64,000 nucleotides of DNA from Fimbriimonadales bacterium (GTDB lineage Bacteria; Armatimonadota; Fimbriimonadia; Fimbriimonadales; GBS-DC): positions 1,453,221 to 1,517,220 of the forward strand of contig AP024673.1 in assembly GCA_025998675.1 (NCBI GenBank), read 5' to 3'. The position numbers and the translations under genes are program-made. The notes under the pieces were generated by a model that had not been told where the DNA came from, did not search any database, and saw nothing but the letters and a program-made list of their open reading frames with translations. This document shows positions 6,528-64,000 of this stretch, in pieces (the stretch's first letter is position 1; every line of letters begins with the position of its first letter).

Positions 6528-7913
6528 ATGGAGATTCTGGAGCGCGTGCGCGCGACTCTCCGCGAGCGACGCCTGCTGCCCCCAGACGGCGGTCTTGTGA
6601 TTGTCGGCTATTCGGGTGGGGCAGACTCCACCGCGCTGCTGCACCTGCTGACGCGCCTGCAGGACGAGTTCCATATCCACCTCCACGCGGCGCACCTGCA
6701 TCACGGCATGCGCCCCGAAGCGGACAACGATGTGCGCGTGTGCCAGTCTGTGTGCGAGCAACTGCAGGTTCCCCTGCACATCGAGCGCGTCGATGTGCCC
6801 GCGCGGGCGCAGGCGGCGCGCATTTCGCTGGAAGAGGCGGGGCGCAACGCCCGCTACGAGTTCTTCGAGCGGCTGGCGCACGCGCTGGACGCCGTCGCTG
6901 TCGCGCTGGCGCACACCCGCGACGACCAGATGGAGACCATTCTGATTAACCTGCTGCGCGGCACGGGACCGCGCGGGCTGTGCGGCATGCCTTACCAGCG
7001 CGACCGCATCATTCGCCCCCTGCTCGACGCGACGCGCGCCCAGACGCACGCCTACTGCGCCGCGCACGGGCTGCCGACCGTGTTCGACAGTACGAACCTG
7101 GACCCGCATCAGCTGCGCCGTCGCGTGCGCATGGAGCTGCTGCCCCTGATGCGCGACCTCTCCCCAGCCATCGACCGCCATCTGCTGCGCCTTGCGGACA
7201 TTCTGGCGCAGGAGGAGTCGTGGTGGGCGACCGCGCTGGAGTGCGGAATCGTAGCTGCTGAAACTTCGCTTCAGCACTCCACACTCGCGCGGGATGCCTT
7301 CACTCAACTTCACCCCGCGCTGCAGCGGCGCGTGTTGCGCGAATGGTTGCGCAGGCGGCTGGGCGCGTTGAACCTCCCGCCGTATGAGATTCTGGAGGGC
7401 GTCCGCCGCGCCGTGCTGGACGGCAGGCGCACTTCGTGGCAACTCACGGACGCCCTGCGCCTGACCACCGACGAGACCGCCCTGCGCCTGCACGAAGCGT
7501 CGCCCAGCCCTGAACCCTATGAGTACCCCGTTGTGCTGGAGACGCCCGTGCTGATTCCGCAGGCGGGCGCATGGCTGGAGGCGCGCCTGCAAAACGCCCC
7601 GCCCCCATCGCTTGAGCCAGCGTCCTACGAGGCGTACCTCGACGCCGACGCCGTGCAGGGACACCTGTGCGTGCGCAACGGACGCACAGGCGAGCGATTC
7701 CAGCCGCTGGGCATGCACGCGCCCAGAAAACTGAGCGACATCTTCATCGACCGCAAAATCCCCCGCGCCGAACGCTGGCGACTGCCCCTGCTGTGCGACG
7801 CGGCGGGCATTCTCTGGATCCCGGGCTACACGATTGCCGCGCGCGCCCGCATCACGCCCGACACCCGGCGCGTGCTGCATGTCGCCCTGCGCCGAAACGG
7901 CACGGAAGCGTAA
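6528..7913 (+). CDS. tilS: tRNA(Ile)-lysidine synthase
   Basis: 461 residues. The PP-loop ATP-binding motif SGGADS is at residues 29-34, followed by HLHHGMRPEAD and the C-terminal TilS domain. The enzyme ligates lysine to C34 of the tRNA-Ile CAU anticodon so that it reads AUA, and is essential in bacteria. It starts two bases after the upstream stop, indicating co-transcription. A repeat element (7237-7281) lies in frame inside the gene and supplies residues about 237-252, in a variable stretch between the catalytic and middle domains. The frame is intact, so the enzyme should be functional. Confidence 0.93.
   Translation: MEILERVRATLRERRLLPPDGGLVIVGYSGGADSTALLHLLTRLQDEFHIHLHAAHLHHGMRPEADNDVRVCQSVCEQLQVPLHIERVDVPARAQAARISLEEAGRNARYEFFERLAHALDAVAVALAHTRDDQMETILINLLRGTGPRGLCGMPYQRDRIIRPLLDATRAQTHAYCAAHGLPTVFDSTNLDPHQLRRRVRMELLPLMRDLSPAIDRHLLRLADILAQEESWWATALECGIVAAETSLQHSTLARDAFTQLHPALQRRVLREWLRRRLGALNLPPYEILEGVRRAVLDGRRTSWQLTDALRLTTDETALRLHEASPSPEPYEYPVVLETPVLIPQAGAWLEARLQNAPPPSLEPASYEAYLDADAVQGHLCVRNGRTGERFQPLGMHAPRKLSDIFIDRKIPRAERWRLPLLCDAAGILWIPGYTIAARARITPDTRRVLHVALRRNGTEA
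7237..7281 (+). repeat. Double-hairpin repeat copy inside tilS (in frame)
   Basis: 45 bp bounded by TGGAGTGC and GCACTCCA, the same ends as the intergenic copies. The CTGAAAC..GCTTCAG half is well preserved; the GGAAGC half is degenerate or shortened. The length is exactly 15 codons, so the tilS frame is kept. Orientation is as in the copies at 30411 and 58130. Confidence 0.8.
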
Positions 7914-30410: not shown

Positions 30411-30467
30411 TGGAGTGCGGAAGCGGGGCTTCCGCGCATGCTGAAGCTGACGCTTCAGCACTCCAAA
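30411..30467 (-). repeat. Double-hairpin repeat, copy A
   Basis: TGGAGTGC and GCACTCCA ends enclose hairpin GGAAGC..GCTTCC and hairpin GCTGAAGC..GCTTCAGC, separated by GCAT. The right flank (30467-30500) matches the flank of the copy at 58130. It lies between the DUF6807 and GHMP kinase starts. Confidence 0.85.
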
Positions 30468-30544: not shown

Positions 30545-31531
30545 ATGCGTCCGATTCGTTATTCGGCGCCGGGGCGCGCGGGGATTGTGGGCAACCCCAG
30601 CGATATGTATGGGGGCGCGGTCATTTCCACAGCGATCCCGCTGCGCGCGCGCTGCACGCTGGAGCCTGCCGCACGCCTGACCTTCCAGTCCTCGGAGCAG
30701 CTGCTTGCGCCCGATTCGCTGGCGCTGACGGGCGATGCGTTCGATGTGTGTCGCGTCGCGTTGCAGGGGCTGGGCTTCACGGTTGCGGACGCGCCGTTCG
30801 CCCTGCGCATCGAGACGGACATCCCCGCGCAGTCGGGGCTGGCGGGGTCGTCCGCCCTGTTGACGGCGATTGTGGCGTGCCTGCTGCGCTATCGGGGCGA
30901 GTCGTGGGGCGCGCCGCATGCGCTGGCGGAGCGCGTGCGCCAGATCGAGGCGCAACTGCTGCAAGTCGCCTGCGGCTATCAGGATTTCTACATGGCGGTG
31001 TGGGGCGGGATTAACTTTATGGAGTTCCGCGACAAAGAGCGTCTGGGCGCCGATCCTGCGGAGCCGTGGGCGACGATGGAGCCGCTGGGGCGCTACCTGC
31101 GCGGCGCGATGCTCCCCCTCTGGCTGGCGACAACGGGCGGGCAGCGGTTTTCGGGCGCGGTGCACGCGAACCTGCGCGCGCGCTGGGAGGCGGGCGAGCC
31201 GCGCGTGCTGGACGGCATGCAGCGACTCGGCAGGCTCGCGCGGGACGCCAAACGCGCCCTGATAGAACAGGACTGGACGCGCCTCGCGCACCTGATGAAC
31301 GAGAACTACGCGATTATTCGCGAGCTGGGCGGCAGCGGCGAGAGCCTCGATCAGCTGGTCGCCTGTGCGCGGGAGCATGGCGCGCTGGGCGCAAAGCTGG
31401 CAGGCGCAGGCGGCGCGGGCGGCACGGTGATTGTGTTGACCCTCGCGCCCGAAAAGACACTGCCCGCCCTGCGCGAACTCGCCGCGCAGGTCATCCCCGT
31501 CGCCCCCTGCGCACCGGGGGTGATGGAGTAA
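30545..31531 (+). CDS. GHMP kinase family sugar kinase
   Basis: 328 residues. Motif 1 is APGRAGIVGNPSDMYGG, ATP-binding motif 2 is IPAQSGLAGSSALLTA, motif 3 is GAKLAGAGGAGGTVIV. It phosphorylates a small sugar or acid with ATP; the motifs resemble glucuronokinase and heptose-7-phosphate kinase relatives. Frames further upstream run through repeat copy A, so ATG 30545 is preferred although no SD is visible. The TAA stop forms the first bases of TIR element 3. Confidence 0.85.
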   Translation: MRPIRYSAPGRAGIVGNPSDMYGGAVISTAIPLRARCTLEPAARLTFQSSEQLLAPDSLALTGDAFDVCRVALQGLGFTVADAPFALRIETDIPAQSGLAGSSALLTAIVACLLRYRGESWGAPHALAERVRQIEAQLLQVACGYQDFYMAVWGGINFMEFRDKERLGADPAEPWATMEPLGRYLRGAMLPLWLATTGGQRFSGAVHANLRARWEAGEPRVLDGMQRLGRLARDAKRALIEQDWTRLAHLMNENYAIIRELGGSGESLDQLVACAREHGALGAKLAGAGGAGGTVIVLTLAPEKTLPALRELAAQVIPVAPCAPGVME

Positions 31532-31706
31532 TACCCACTGCGCAGTCAAAGTTCGTTAATTGCCTCGCGCGCGCCTGCAGAGGCGTGCTGTTGCCTGCGC
31601 CCCGCTACTATGGAGTGCTGAAGCGGGAGCTTCAGCATGCGGAAGCTACGCTTCCGCAACTCCATAAACCGCCGTTTTGCGAACGATGACCAGCAGATTG
31701 GTATGA
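31529..31706 (+). mobile_element. TIR-bounded hairpin element 3 (MITE-like)
   Basis: 178 bp. The left terminal repeat (31529-31564) starts on the GHMP kinase TAA and contains CCACTGCGCAGTCAAAGTTC. The right (31675-31706) ends in GATTGGTATGA. The cargo is copy B of the double-hairpin repeat. It sits between convergent genes. The segment 31552-31611 is nearly repeated at 55811-55869. Confidence 0.72.
31611..31664 (+). repeat. Double-hairpin repeat, copy B
   Basis: TGGAGTGC start, hairpin CTGAAGC..GCTTCAG, spacer CATG, hairpin GGAAGC..GCTTCC, end ACTCCA. Confidence 0.85.
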
Positions 31707-54469: not shown

Positions 54470-55741
54470 TTACTTCGGCACAATCACAGGCACGGTACAG
54501 AGCGAGAAGTTGCCCGTCTCGGCGCGGTAGGTGACCTCCGCGAACAGCGCGAGGTTGTGCCCACGGCGCGGAATGCGGGCGACCCACGCATCGCCCTCCC
54601 TTCGGGCGCGCACAGGCTCCCACCGCGCAGGGCGGAAGTCTTTGTCGTTCGCGCGGCGGGCGACCCACACCTCGACAATCTCAGGCTCACTGTCGCTGCG
54701 CACACGGAAGACCACCTCGTCGCCTGCGAGGCTGTGCGTCGCGCTCAGGCGAGTCGGGAACTCCATCTTGCCGACGCTCATCAGGTAGAACGCGCACAGG
54801 CTGTTCACCACACGGTCGTAGTCGCCCAGTCCGTGCCCGCCGTTGGGCACATAGAGCGCGTACTTGCGCTTGCTCGGCAGGTCGTCGAAGTAGAACCGCG
54901 CGGCGTCCGTCGCCCAGTAGGGGTCGTTCGCGCCGTTGATTATCAGAATCGGCATCGTGTAGCGCGCACGATAGGAGTAGGGGTCTACCCAGCTCACCAG
55001 TTGCCTGCCGCGCTCGGTGAGCATCTTCTCCATCAGCCCGCGCTCGTAATATTCCGAAATCTGCTGGCTGTAGCGCCCCCAGAGTTCGAGCTGGTGCGGC
55101 ATCTGCTTGAAAAAGTTCAGGTTGTCGAACACCATCGGGGCAATTGCGCGCACGCGGTTATCGACGGCGGCGGTCAGCCATGTCGTCCAGCCGCGCTTCG
55201 ACGCGCCCGTGACCAGAAAGTCCTTGATGTCCAGCCGCCACTCCTGTTTCGCAAACGCCTGCACAGCGTCCATCGCGCGCACGGCGGATTTGACCATCGG
55301 GAACAGCAGCGGCCAGGTCGCGTCGCCCGTCTCCCAGAACTGCACATAGGTGTGCGCAATCAGGTTGTCTTCCACGAGGTCGGGGCGGATCAGGGGCTGA
55401 TTGGGCACATCGTGCAGCACGACGCCAATCGCGCCGACGCGCTCCACGGCGCGGGCGATAATCTGCAGTTCGCTGCGCCCGTCGCCGCTGCCCGTGATGT
55501 AGAGAATTGCGGTGTCCGTGTATTTCAGCTCGTTCGGCTTCACGATGCGCACGCGATGACGCCATGTGAACTCGCGCCACTGCTGCGAGACCACCGTCAG
55601 CTCCACAAACTGGCTATTGCCGATTTTCGATTCGAGGCTCTTCGTCCACTCGAACGGCGACGGCGCGCGCACATAGCTTGTCAGGTCTGCCCGTGCGCTT
55701 GCCAGCAAAACCACGCTCAGGAGTATCCAGTTAATTTTCAT
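54470..55741 (-). CDS. Secreted PhoPQ-activated pathogenicity-related (PqaA-like) protein
   Basis: 423 residues: signal peptide (1-18), then an alpha/beta-hydrolase-like domain with nucleophile-type LVTGASKRGWTTWL, DPYSYRARYTMPILIINGANDPYW (split by the Asp region) and NGGHGL near the His position. Family PF10142, of uncertain activity, known from PqaA of Salmonella. SD AGGAGGTGG precedes ATG 55741. Here it is probably an environmental esterase or peptidase and not a virulence factor. Confidence 0.85.
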   Translation of the reverse strand: MKINWILLSVVLLASARADLTSYVRAPSPFEWTKSLESKIGNSQFVELTVVSQQWREFTWRHRVRIVKPNELKYTDTAILYITGSGDGRSELQIIARAVERVGAIGVVLHDVPNQPLIRPDLVEDNLIAHTYVQFWETGDATWPLLFPMVKSAVRAMDAVQAFAKQEWRLDIKDFLVTGASKRGWTTWLTAAVDNRVRAIAPMVFDNLNFFKQMPHQLELWGRYSQQISEYYERGLMEKMLTERGRQLVSWVDPYSYRARYTMPILIINGANDPYWATDAARFYFDDLPSKRKYALYVPNGGHGLGDYDRVVNSLCAFYLMSVGKMEFPTRLSATHSLAGDEVVFRVRSDSEPEIVEVWVARRANDKDFRPARWEPVRARREGDAWVARIPRRGHNLALFAEVTYRAETGNFSLCTVPVIVPK

Positions 55742-55756
55742 AATCCACCTCCTCCT

Positions 55757-55784
55757 ATGGTGTGCGGAAGCGTTGACTTCCGCC
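55757..55784 (+). repeat. Degenerate partial double-hairpin repeat
   Basis: GTGCGGAAGCGTTGACTTCCGC matches only the GGAAGC hairpin half of the family. It lies just upstream of the PqaA-like start. Confidence 0.55.
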
Positions 55785-55788
55785 CTAC

Positions 55789-55822
55789 TTATACTATCGG
55801 CGCGGCGAATTTCGTAAATGCC
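55789..55822 (+). repeat. Solitary TIR-type end next to the transposase
   Basis: Matches the terminal repeats of elements 1-4 (ATACTATCGGCGCGGCGAAT, then TTCGTAAAT). The following 45 bases nearly repeat 31563-31611. No partner end is found beyond the transposase. Confidence 0.6.
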
Positions 55823-55868
55823 TCGCGCGCACCTGCAGAGGCATACTGTTGCCCGCGCCCCGCTACTA

Positions 55869-55926
55869 TGGAGTGCTGAAGCGTCAGCTTCAGCATAGCG
55901 CGGAAGCGGAGCTTCCGCGACTGCCT
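55869..55926 (+). repeat. Double-hairpin repeat, copy C (left flank of RAYT)
   Basis: TGGAGTGC start, CTGAAGC..GCTTCAG and GCGGAAGC..GCTTCCGC hairpins. The right end is decayed (GCGACTGCC in place of GCACTCCA). It ends 23 bases before the transposase stop. Confidence 0.8.
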
Positions 55927-55949
55927 CTTTTTGACGCGCATCGCCTCCG

Positions 55950-56495
55950 TCAAACCTCTGGAACACGAACTCTATCATATGGTATCGTCGCCAGCACGCG
56001 CTGAAGCTCCGAAGGCGCGTGCGCCTTGAACCATGCAGCCGAACAGAAAGGGTAATCTTCCGCTTGTTTTACCAACCCATGGCGTACAGGATTGTTGTTT
56101 ACATAGTTCAACCGCGCAAGATAGCTTTTCTCATAGGTCAAGCAGGTGTCCCAATATTCGTACCATACTTTACGCCGATGTGCCTCATCCATAGAATTCA
56201 CTACCACAGCTGTCTTGGCATGCAGGCGCTGTATTAATCGGTTCAGAGAAGTCCCATTGGCGGGCGATTGTACGATGATATGATAATGATTGGAAAATAG
56301 CGCCCAAGCATGCAGCTCCCACCCATACCGACGCACTGTTTCGAAAAGCGACTCTTGCAGGATATGAAGCTTCGCAGGGGTGTTGAACAAGTGCTGTTTG
56401 TGTAGCGTAGACGCCGTCACGATGTATAAACTGTTCGGTACGAAGTAATGTTTCGGCGCGTGATGCCATCCACGAGTCTCTACCTGTTCTCCCAT
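55950..56495 (-). CDS. REP-associated tyrosine transposase (RAYT, Y1 HUH family)
   Basis: 181 residues, usual length for the family. The HUH motif is HYH (His70, His72 in SNHYHIIVQ). The catalytic Tyr candidate is Tyr131 in LNYVNNNPVRHGLV, and EDYPFCSAAWF is the typical end block. RAYTs bind and nick single-stranded REP hairpins and are held to spread them. Copies C and D of the double-hairpin repeat flank this gene, the layout of a REPtron. ATG 56495 is preferred; frames further upstream run through the repeat. Base composition is less GC-rich than neighbours, a sign of transfer. Confidence 0.92.
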   Translation of the reverse strand: MGEQVETRGWHHAPKHYFVPNSLYIVTASTLHKQHLFNTPAKLHILQESLFETVRRYGWELHAWALFSNHYHIIVQSPANGTSLNRLIQRLHAKTAVVVNSMDEAHRRKVWYEYWDTCLTYEKSYLARLNYVNNNPVRHGLVKQAEDYPFCSAAWFKAHAPSELQRVLATIPYDRVRVPEV

Positions 56496-56578
56496 CGAGT
56501 CTCCCTCTGCTGATGCACTCCGGTGCGGTTGCAGCAAGTTTTCAACAGCCTGATATCTGCGCGTGTGCGCAGACGCAT

Positions 56579-56707
56579 AATTTTGGAGTGCAGAAGCGGG
56601 AGCTTCAGCATGCGGAAGCTCCGCTTCCGCACTCCATACAAACGACGCTTCGCTTGTGTGGCGTCGTCGTAGCGCCGCGTTGCTCAACGCATCTGCACTC
56701 CAAAATT
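56579..56707. repeat. 129-bp unit with 16-bp perfect inverted ends around copy D
   Basis: AATTTTGGAGTGCAGA (56579-56594) is exactly inverted at 56692-56707. Inside lie copy D and a further 55 bases (GACGCTTCGC..GCGTCG). It lies between RAYT and rfaE2. Confidence 0.75.
56584..56636 (+). repeat. Double-hairpin repeat, copy D (right flank of RAYT)
   Basis: TGGAGTGC and GCACTCCA ends with both hairpins intact. The flank CATACAAACGACGCTTCGC is shared with the copy at 63938 and, inverted, with 58110-58130. Confidence 0.85.
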
Positions 56708-56711
56708 TACC

Positions 56712-57194
56712 TTACCGCGCCTTAATCGCTTCGACGAGTTGGGTGGTCGATTGTTCCGCTTCCAGCGGCAGGATGACCACGAACCCGCCCTGCTCGATGA
56801 CCGCTTCCGATTCGGGCAGGTCTTGCTCGGTGTAGTCGCCGCCTTTGGCGTAGTAGGCGGGCTGCACGAGTTGCGCCAGCTCGACCGCCGTCGTCTGCGG
56901 GAAGATGACCACATAATCGACGCACTCCAGCCCTGCGACGAGTTCGGCGCGTTCGGCGTCGGGGCGGTAGGGGCGCGGCTCGCCTTTGAGCTGGCGCACC
57001 GACTCGTCGCTGTTGACGCCCACCACCAGCAGGTCGCCCAGCGCGCGCGCCGCCTGCAGGTAGCGCAAGTGCCCTACATGCAACAGGTCGAAGCAGCCGT
57101 TGGTCAGCACGACCTGTTTGCCTGCCTCGCGCCACTGCGCCGCCAGCTGCGCGAGCGCGTCCCACGATAGAATCTTGCTCTCAGCGCGTCGCAT
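56712..57194 (-). CDS. rfaE2: D-glycero-beta-D-manno-heptose 1-phosphate adenylyltransferase
   Basis: 160 residues, nucleotidyltransferase with VLTNGCFDLLHVGHLRYLQ (HxGH motif), VGVNSDESVRQLKG and YYAKGGDYTEQDLPE. It makes ADP-heptose for lipopolysaccharide or glycoprotein, here as the separate C-terminal half of HldE. The start overlaps the end of the glutaminyl cyclase gene by 14 bases. The presence of heptose synthesis fits a diderm envelope. Confidence 0.9.
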   Translation of the reverse strand: MRRAESKILSWDALAQLAAQWREAGKQVVLTNGCFDLLHVGHLRYLQAARALGDLLVVGVNSDESVRQLKGEPRPYRPDAERAELVAGLECVDYVVIFPQTTAVELAQLVQPAYYAKGGDYTEQDLPESEAVIEQGGFVVILPLEAEQSTTQLVEAIKAR

Positions 57195-58129: not shown

Positions 58130-58182
58130 TGGAGTGCGGAAGCGGAGCTTCCGCATGCTGAAGCTCCTGCTTCAGCACTCCA
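58130..58182 (-). repeat. Double-hairpin repeat, copy E
   Basis: TGGAGTGC..GCACTCCA ends, GGAAGC hairpin first, GCTGAAGC hairpin second; right flank AAAGGACGCGCGTGTGCGCA shared with copy A. It sits just upstream of the glutaminyl cyclase 5' end. Confidence 0.85.
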
Positions 58183-62999: not shown

Positions 63000-63884
63000 A
63001 TGGAAGCGAACATTTTCACGAATGTTGTGCTGCCTCTTGCGCTGGCGGTGATTATGCTGGGCTTGGGGCTGACCCTGACGCGCGACGACTTCCTGCGCGT
63101 GGTGATTTTCCCGAAGGCGTTCGTGATTGGACTGACCTGCCAGATGGCGCTGCTGCCGCTGGCGGGGTTTGTGATTGCCAAGTTATTCCCGATGGAGCCG
63201 CAGCTGGCGGTCGGGGTGATGATTCTCGCGCTCTGCCCCGCGGGCGCGACGGCGAACCTGATTACCTACCTCGCGCGGGGCGATGTCGCGCTGGGGATTA
63301 CGCTCACGGCGTTCAACAGCCTGATTATTATCATCACGACACCCATCCTGATTAACCTGTCGCTGGGACACTTTCTGGGCGAAAGTCAGGAGATTCGGCT
63401 ACCCGTGCTGCGCACGATTATTCAGGTGGGCGCGATTATCCTGATTCCGGTCTCAATTGGCATGTTCATCCGGGCGCGCAAGCCCCAGTTCGCGGCGGCG
63501 GCGGAGCGTCCCGTGCGTATCCTCTCAACGCTGTTCATCGCGATTGCGGTGCTGGGCGCGGTGCTGCAGGATGTGGAGAACCTGCCCTCGCACTTTCGAC
63601 AGGCGGGCGTCTCGATGCTCGCGTTGAATGTGCTGACGCTCTGGATGGGCTACAATGTGGCGCGCCTGTTCCGATTGCCGCTCAAGCAGGCGATTGCGAT
63701 TTCGATTGAGGGCGGCATCCAGAACGGCACGCTCGCGATTCTGATTGCCAGCACGATTCTGAAGCAGCCCGCGATGTCCATCCCTGCGGCGGTCTACAGC
63801 CTGATTATGTTCGCGACGGGCGCGTTTATGATTTACTACTTCGGGCGTCGCGCGCGTGAGGCTGCCCCAGAGATGGCGTCTTAG
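63000..63884 (+). CDS. Bile acid:sodium symporter (BASS) family transporter
   Basis: 294 residues with 9-10 hydrophobic helices, LALCPAGATANLITYLARGD and EGGIQNGTLAILIA being the two family crossover regions that hold sodium and substrate. It imports an organic anion (bile-acid-like, pantoate or a keto acid) with Na+. The start has CTATAGAG about 8 bases upstream and no SD, weakly like the leaderless promoters. No neighbour fixes the substrate. Confidence 0.88.
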   Translation: MEANIFTNVVLPLALAVIMLGLGLTLTRDDFLRVVIFPKAFVIGLTCQMALLPLAGFVIAKLFPMEPQLAVGVMILALCPAGATANLITYLARGDVALGITLTAFNSLIIIITTPILINLSLGHFLGESQEIRLPVLRTIIQVGAIILIPVSIGMFIRARKPQFAAAAERPVRILSTLFIAIAVLGAVLQDVENLPSHFRQAGVSMLALNVLTLWMGYNVARLFRLPLKQAIAISIEGGIQNGTLAILIASTILKQPAMSIPAAVYSLIMFATGAFMIYYFGRRAREAAPEMAS

Positions 63885-63937
63885 GTGTCGTTGCAGAAAG
63901 TGTTCAGCAATCGCTCTATCTGCGCATGCGCGTAATT

Positions 63938-63992
63938 TGGAGTGCTGAAGCGGGAGCTTCAGCATGCGCGGAAGCTCCGCTTCCGCACTCCA
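63938..63992 (+). repeat. Double-hairpin repeat, copy F
   Basis: TGGAGTGC..GCACTCCA with both hairpins intact. The left flank (63890-63937) resembles 56530-56583 left of copy D, and the right flank CATACAAACG runs to the window end. Confidence 0.85.
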
Positions 63993-64000
63993 TACAAACG

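Follow-up and report, generated by a model that had tools for sequence, protein, structure and literature searches.

A gene for a Y1 HUH transposase lies between two copies of a repeat that recurs elsewhere in the same region of an Armatimonadota genome, and the first-pass annotation read the gene and the repeats together as a REP/RAYT system. REPs and RAYTs have been described from many phyla, and the REP/RAYT proteins are among the best-studied domesticated transposases of bacteria. The question raised by this locus is whether the repeats belong to the transposase or merely stand beside it, and how they came to be dispersed. We analysed a stretch of 64,000 nt (the window), the 2.99-Mb genome that contains it (G000, the genome under study) and the genome of a sister species, 'Armatimonadetes bacterium HOT.MAX.079' (G008; contig JAIMAN010000019, in a fragmented assembly of about 120 contigs), together with more distant relatives.

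The transposase gene and its site

The gene (55950..56495, minus strand) encodes a protein of 181 amino acids. In profile searches the protein scored 100.9 bits against NF047646, the curated RAYT model (cut-off 80), and matched the Y1_Tnp domain PF01797, and its sole match in the PDB using phmmer was the TnpA-REP protein of E. coli (4ER8, E = 2.4e-8), a match that is also indicative of its fold. When residues are counted along the open reading frame from the ATG at 56495, the HUH motif (His70, His72) is intact and there is a single catalytic tyrosine, Tyr131, as first annotated; Tyr131 aligns with Tyr115 of 4ER8, and these columns are invariant across the clade described below. Plasmid records contained only distant relatives, with 23-31% identity. 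A second, weaker Y1-transposase-like gene is found about 8 kb to the right of the window end (G000:C1:1525066-1525377) and also in locus L207. It scored 38 bits against the RAYT model, it appears to have a similarly scoring counterpart in the other genomes of the genus, and its product seems to be a conserved protein of a different kind.

G000 and G008 each carry one copy of this type of RAYT at the same junction, between the rfaE domain II gene (56712..57194, minus; TIGR02199) and a gene that we label 'esterase', which has no NCBIfam match (54470..55765, minus). Gene order and orientation are identical in the two genomes. In six relatives (loci L135, L136, L139, L140, L141 and L143), rfaE and the 'esterase' adjoin with a short gap and the RAYT is absent. 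The RAYT is 71% identical between G000 and G008, compared to 92% for RfaE and 91% for the 'esterase', and it has evolved faster than its neighbours; RAYTs have been reported as fast-evolving (PMC2817692). To the RfaE of the other relatives the identity is at most 80%, so that G000 and G008, at 92%, are sisters.

The flanks of the gene in G008 were informative. Four copies of TGGAGTGC with a T-type hairpin lie upstream of the RAYT, and four copies of a G-type hairpin with GCACTCCA, one of which differs by a base in its head, lie downstream, so that the half units on the two sides stand in inverted orientation. The dispersed unit corresponds to both of these ends joined, with the gene left out.

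Number and fold of the repeat unit

The window contains 14 occurrences of TGGAGTGC against an expectation of 2.4, and none of 100 shuffles reached 14. Genome-wide numbers were obtained by pattern searches and from sampled stretches. The family first noticed in the window has 103 exact copies of the paired form TGGAGTGC-N20-45-GCACTCCA in the genome, and the control with the reversed pattern gave 0. As 259 half units (132+127) were counted, about four fifths of the halves sit in doublets. The unit has the architecture of a REPIN, namely a T-type REP followed, across a short spacer, by an inverted G-type REP, and the dispersed copies are 53-55 bp long. Doublets prevail over singlets, as in REPINs, and the unit is palindromic, dispersed and present in high copy number, as REPs are. 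The difference between the two inner hairpins that had been seen in the window holds in the larger sample: TGAAGC was paired with GGAAGC in 42 of 49 sampled units, and only 2 units had hairpins of the same type.

Full-length units, treated as DNA, folded far better than shuffled sequences (z from -5.9 to -7.3). A three-way junction, the fold originally proposed for every unit, was the lowest-energy DNA fold for the unit at 58130, whereas one long hairpin was slightly better for those at 56584, 63938 and 30411, since the inner hairpins are also able to pair with one another.

Repeats and RAYT occur together

Among 13 genomes of the genus, the RAYT and the units were found together in G000 (103 units) and G008 (70 units) only, and the other eleven had neither a RAYT of this type nor a complete TGGAGTGC unit. 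Repeat density therefore tracks the RAYT in the relatives, as had been anticipated. Because G000 and G008 are sisters, the co-occurrence within the genus and the gain (or retention) of the RAYT amount to one event.

We searched 291 Armatimonadota genomes with a looser pattern. Copy numbers ranged from 0 to 9 except in G000 (107), G008 (71) and G213 (93), and each of these three has a RAYT among the repeats. G213, from another family, is the only independent replicate of the co-occurrence and an independent case of the architecture seen in G000. Its 93 units have the same GGAGTGC head and are likewise built of two hairpins, but the hairpin sequences differ. Its RAYT (L182:4824-5755) is more distant and has three complete REPIN units around it, on both sides; a short internal duplication breaks the open reading frame. 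G189, again from another family, encodes the nearest relative of the G000 and G008 RAYTs (68% identical) and has no GGAGTGC unit, but GACT-tagged hairpins lie beside the gene. The next nearest sequences are from Chloroflexota and Hydrogenedentota, and this order of relationship suggests horizontal transfer in the history of the G000/G008 RAYT.

A different tag at the hairpin foot

Published REPs have a GT[AG]G foot, or CGTC where no transposase is known for the family (PMC2817692, PMC6006769, PMC3733652). The units described here do not carry the canonical GT[AG]G foot. In G000 the bases preceding the 8-bp stem are GGAGT, and GGA[GC]T is the tag of the clade; the comparison with GTAG-like tetranucleotides suggested in the first-pass annotation thus gave GGAGT or GGACT, which are not GTAG-like in the strict sense. 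The tag can alternatively be read as GGAG standing one base from the stem, that is, as a one-base change from GTAG.

We scanned the hairpins around 80 distinct RAYT loci for tags. GAGT was by far the commonest set of four bases at the foot of hairpins up to 350 bp from the gene (58 of 438 feet, compared to 8 of 352 farther off). Hairpins headed by GGA[GC]T were present within 500 bp of the RAYT at 28 of 33 loci in the clade to which the G000 protein belongs and at 5 of 47 loci with other RAYTs (p = 2e-11), while the far flanks of the clade loci gave 4 of 31 and shuffled sequences 0.2 of 33. In an unbiased 5-mer scan from which G000 and G008 were left out, GGAGT ranked first, at 25 of 31 clade loci. 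Hairpins with GT[AG]G adjoin just 5 of the 33 clade RAYTs; outside the clade, GTAGTGC was found at locus L130. In a RAYT tree the tag-bearing group comprised 35 rows with support of 100/99, and the tag was present in 30 of them. The clade spans five phyla: Armatimonadota, Chloroflexota, Hydrogenedentota, Verrucomicrobiota and Myxococcota. At one Akkermansiaceae locus (L095:4600-5900) the RAYT stands amid several long units arranged head to tail, which start with TTTTGAGTGCG and end with CGCACTCAAAAG.

Residues W94, Q95 and R104 of E. coli TnpA-REP are well conserved in the subclasses with typical REPs, and their region has been linked with recognition of GTAG (PMC6006769). Using the aligned 4ER8 sequence as the reference, we found that Q95 is replaced by Y, F or H in the clade, R97 is missing, and H101 and R104 are mostly T, while W94 and the catalytic residues have been retained. 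From the alignment, tag and contact residues appear to have changed together in this clade. The string GGAG is absent from the text of PMC3733652. Neither an account of a GGAGT tag nor one of REP/RAYT in Armatimonadota, a phylum for which the first annotation knew of none, was found in the literature searched; as this literature misses most subscription papers, both absences are weak evidence.

Units at the centre of longer elements

Alignment of the flanks revealed that most units in G000 are the centres of longer elements of ~160-175 bp with terminal inverted repeats. Family i elements are about 160 bp long (TAAGTGYCTTTGC...GCAAAGRCACTTA) with the ends TAAGTG...CACTTA, and family ii elements are about 175 bp long (ATACCAATCTGCTGGTCA...GCAGATTGGTAT). 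Of 59 sampled units, 45 had an arm of family i or ii on one side or both. A unit was present in each of the 18 family i elements that we recovered; many of the loci had been fetched by way of the unit, but a random sample of 304 kb agrees. Family ii elements occur without the unit too. Hybrids were also seen (L028, L209:12266 and L047), in which a REPIN unit joins an arm of family i to an arm of family ii, as if elements had recombined at the unit. Units of G008 lie instead in elements of the CCCTCTCCC type. Comparison of the G008 flank families with families i and ii gave nothing beyond weak matches, and no arm of either family was found in 320 kb of G004.

The copies initially listed in the window all exist, but three required correction. 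Copy C (55869..55919, plus; sequence and fold) has both the T- and G-type hairpins and is truncated, as the closing GCACTCCA is missing; a family ii arm adjoins it (55788..55868, plus) and the opposite arm is missing. The unit at 31611..31664 (plus) has a 1-nt insertion in the closing head (GCAACTCCA), and that at 7237..7281 (plus) is a degenerate unit of 45 bp, which lies in frame inside tilS and adds the peptide LECGIVAAETSLQHS. No tilS homologue with which this insertion might be dated was present among the fetched loci. Copy D (56584..56636, plus; sequence and fold) is complete as a REPIN unit and lies upstream of the RAYT, 89 bp from its start. It is adjoined by a family i arm of a truncated element (56522..56583, plus), and an extra inverted head, GCACTCCAAAATT (56695..56707, minus), identified by its sequence, pairs with 56579-56591. 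The proposal that the RAYT is framed by its own repeats is therefore borne out cleanly by the half units of G008, whereas in the window copy C is truncated and the unit of copy D lies inside a truncated MITE. The remaining dispersed units are at 30411..30465 (plus), with partial family i arms, at 58130..58182 (plus), and at 63938..63992 (plus), in the centre of a family i element.

We were able to place 14 unit sites of G000 in G008, and the complete unit was missing from 12 of them. These included the sites of the units at 30411 and 58130 and the RAYT locus itself, where G008 has half units only. Two clean insertions relative to G008 were identified, each of an entire composite. At 63938 the sequence in G008 is TCTTAGTCGC, an empty site with a single TA, and in G000 it is TCT-TA, followed by the family i element with its unit and then TA-GCCGC; this composite (63882..64000, plus), with the TA duplication on its flanks, extends ~42 bp past the window. 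At 31611 a whole family ii element (31530..31704, plus) is inserted at a junction that is empty in G008, with no clear target duplication. Terminal inverted repeats and a target duplication were thus seen for the family i composite and not for the bare unit. As entire composites were inserted, with a TA duplication at 63938, a DDE transposase fits as the mover and the RAYT does not, and the evidence points to a DDE-type transposase for these two copies. One further site (L059/L253) is apparently shared, both units being present in surroundings that can be aligned only poorly. A G008 unit at L267:2155 was considered as a precise insertion and rejected, the alignment being too poor to define a target site.

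In G016, which belongs to a different genus and lacks a close RAYT, there are two units, one in each composite type (L183:3443 and L184:3443). Hitchhiking or contamination is possible, the latter because one of the composites is 227 bp from a contig end.

TA-targeting MITEs of the IS630/Tc1 type have terminal inverted repeats and a TA duplication, and the unit could be no more than the central hairpin of such elements, moved by a DDE transposase encoded elsewhere and adjacent to the RAYT by coincidence. The presence of the unit in every family i element recovered, the arms on most sampled units, the insertion of whole composites and the G016 composites are in keeping with this explanation, but we consider it unlikely, because the same unit occurs in three host repeats that are unrelated (families i and ii of G000, and the CCCTCTCCC elements of G008) and inverted half units flank the G008 RAYT. 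In addition, among 291 Armatimonadota genomes more than nine copies were found only in the three whose RAYT stands amid the repeats, and the tag follows the RAYT clade across phyla. An autonomous, ordinary IS200/IS605 element accompanied by its MITEs, instead of a domesticated RAYT, is very improbable: although the protein has a Y1_Tnp domain and the flanking hairpins resemble IS ends, it scored 19.8 bits against the IS200 model NF033573, below the cut-off of 55, while passing the RAYT model, and it is a single-copy gene at a site that is syntenic in two species. Least credible is the idea that these strong hairpins are transcription terminators or mRNA-end structures under regulatory selection and not mobile DNA, given the resolvable orthologous sites that lack a complete unit, the relatives without any unit and the copy in frame inside tilS.

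A proposed history

We favour, with a probability of about 0.78, a REP/RAYT system made up of a REPtron plus REPINs, in which the RAYT entered in a common ancestor and the REPINs were later captured in MITEs. Weighing against this view are the single event behind the co-occurrence in the genus, with a lone replicate whose RAYT frame is broken, the two insertions of entire composites, the G016 composites in a genome that has no close RAYT, and the G189 RAYT with no GGAGTGC unit. The protein is a RAYT by family match, and the repeats are probably its cognate REP doublets, in agreement with the initial interpretation. The RAYT, a domesticated Y1 HUH nuclease, probably binds single-stranded hairpins with GGA[GC]T at their 5' foot and would cut beside them via Tyr131. 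It is likely to have reached the junction of rfaE and the 'esterase' in an ancestor shared by G000 and G008, and may make, or may once have made, REPINs out of its own flanking REPs. These REPINs would then have been captured within unrelated palindromic MITE-like elements, at their centres, the elements being different ones in the two species. Whole composites would afterwards have inserted in G000.

With most dispersed copies in G000 forming the cores of larger MITE-like elements, copying of the units by the RAYT is no more than plausible. Capture at the apex of palindromes in two species suggests that the RAYT may place units at sites where single strands are exposed by a palindrome. A more far-reaching proposal has two parts: that a RAYT clade in at least five phyla reads a third REP tag, GGA[GC]T, through replaced guide-pocket residues, and that the RAYT puts REPINs into unrelated palindromic MITEs, at their apex, after which these MITEs spread them across the genome and as far as a genus without such a RAYT. 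We put forward this combination tentatively and regard it as rather doubtful when taken as a whole.

Comparison with known systems

The system resembles the REP/RAYT systems of Gammaproteobacteria (REPtrons and BIMEs; PMC2817692, PMC8266576) in having a single-copy, vertically kept Y1 HUH protein that evolves faster than its neighbours, inverted REPs by the gene, and at least ~100 dispersed copies whose number tracks the cognate RAYT. It differs in its foot, GGA[GC]T (GAGT at the stem, or GGAG one base off) in place of GT[AG]G, and in the residues aligned to the guide-contact region of the E. coli protein. Like the REPINs of Pseudomonas fluorescens, the unit is an inverted REP doublet with a short spacer in which the doublet prevails, and the closeness in energy of the three-way junction and the long hairpin recalls their alternative hairpin and clover forms (PMC3116915); unlike them, it has halves of two types (TGAAGC and GGAAGC) and lies at the centres of MITE-like elements. 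The NHYH and W[YH] motifs are shared with TnpA-Y1 subclass 2.8, which was described from Cyanobacteria with YIHYNP and GT[AG]G tags (PMC6006769), whereas the present clade has mostly YVxxNP and the tag GGA[GC]T. The GTAG- and CGTC-tagged REP super-families (PMC3733652) are likewise palindromic repeats defined by an unpaired end tag, but neither tag is found here. The ~160-bp composites resemble TA-targeting MITEs of the IS630/Tc1 type in their terminal inverted repeats and in the TA duplication seen at one clean site, and differ from them in having a REPIN at the centre.

To our knowledge, the guide rule of REP/RAYT systems is known solely from GTAG-tagged examples, and a clade that appears to have altered its tag along with the aligned contact residues would be a natural experiment on how RAYTs read DNA. 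REPINs nested in MITEs may have a route to multiply and to cross between genomes without a transposase of their own, and spread of this kind would alter the interpretation of REP copy numbers. Set against these precedents, the system is of a known kind; its tag variant is new, and the nesting of its REPINs in MITEs is unusual.
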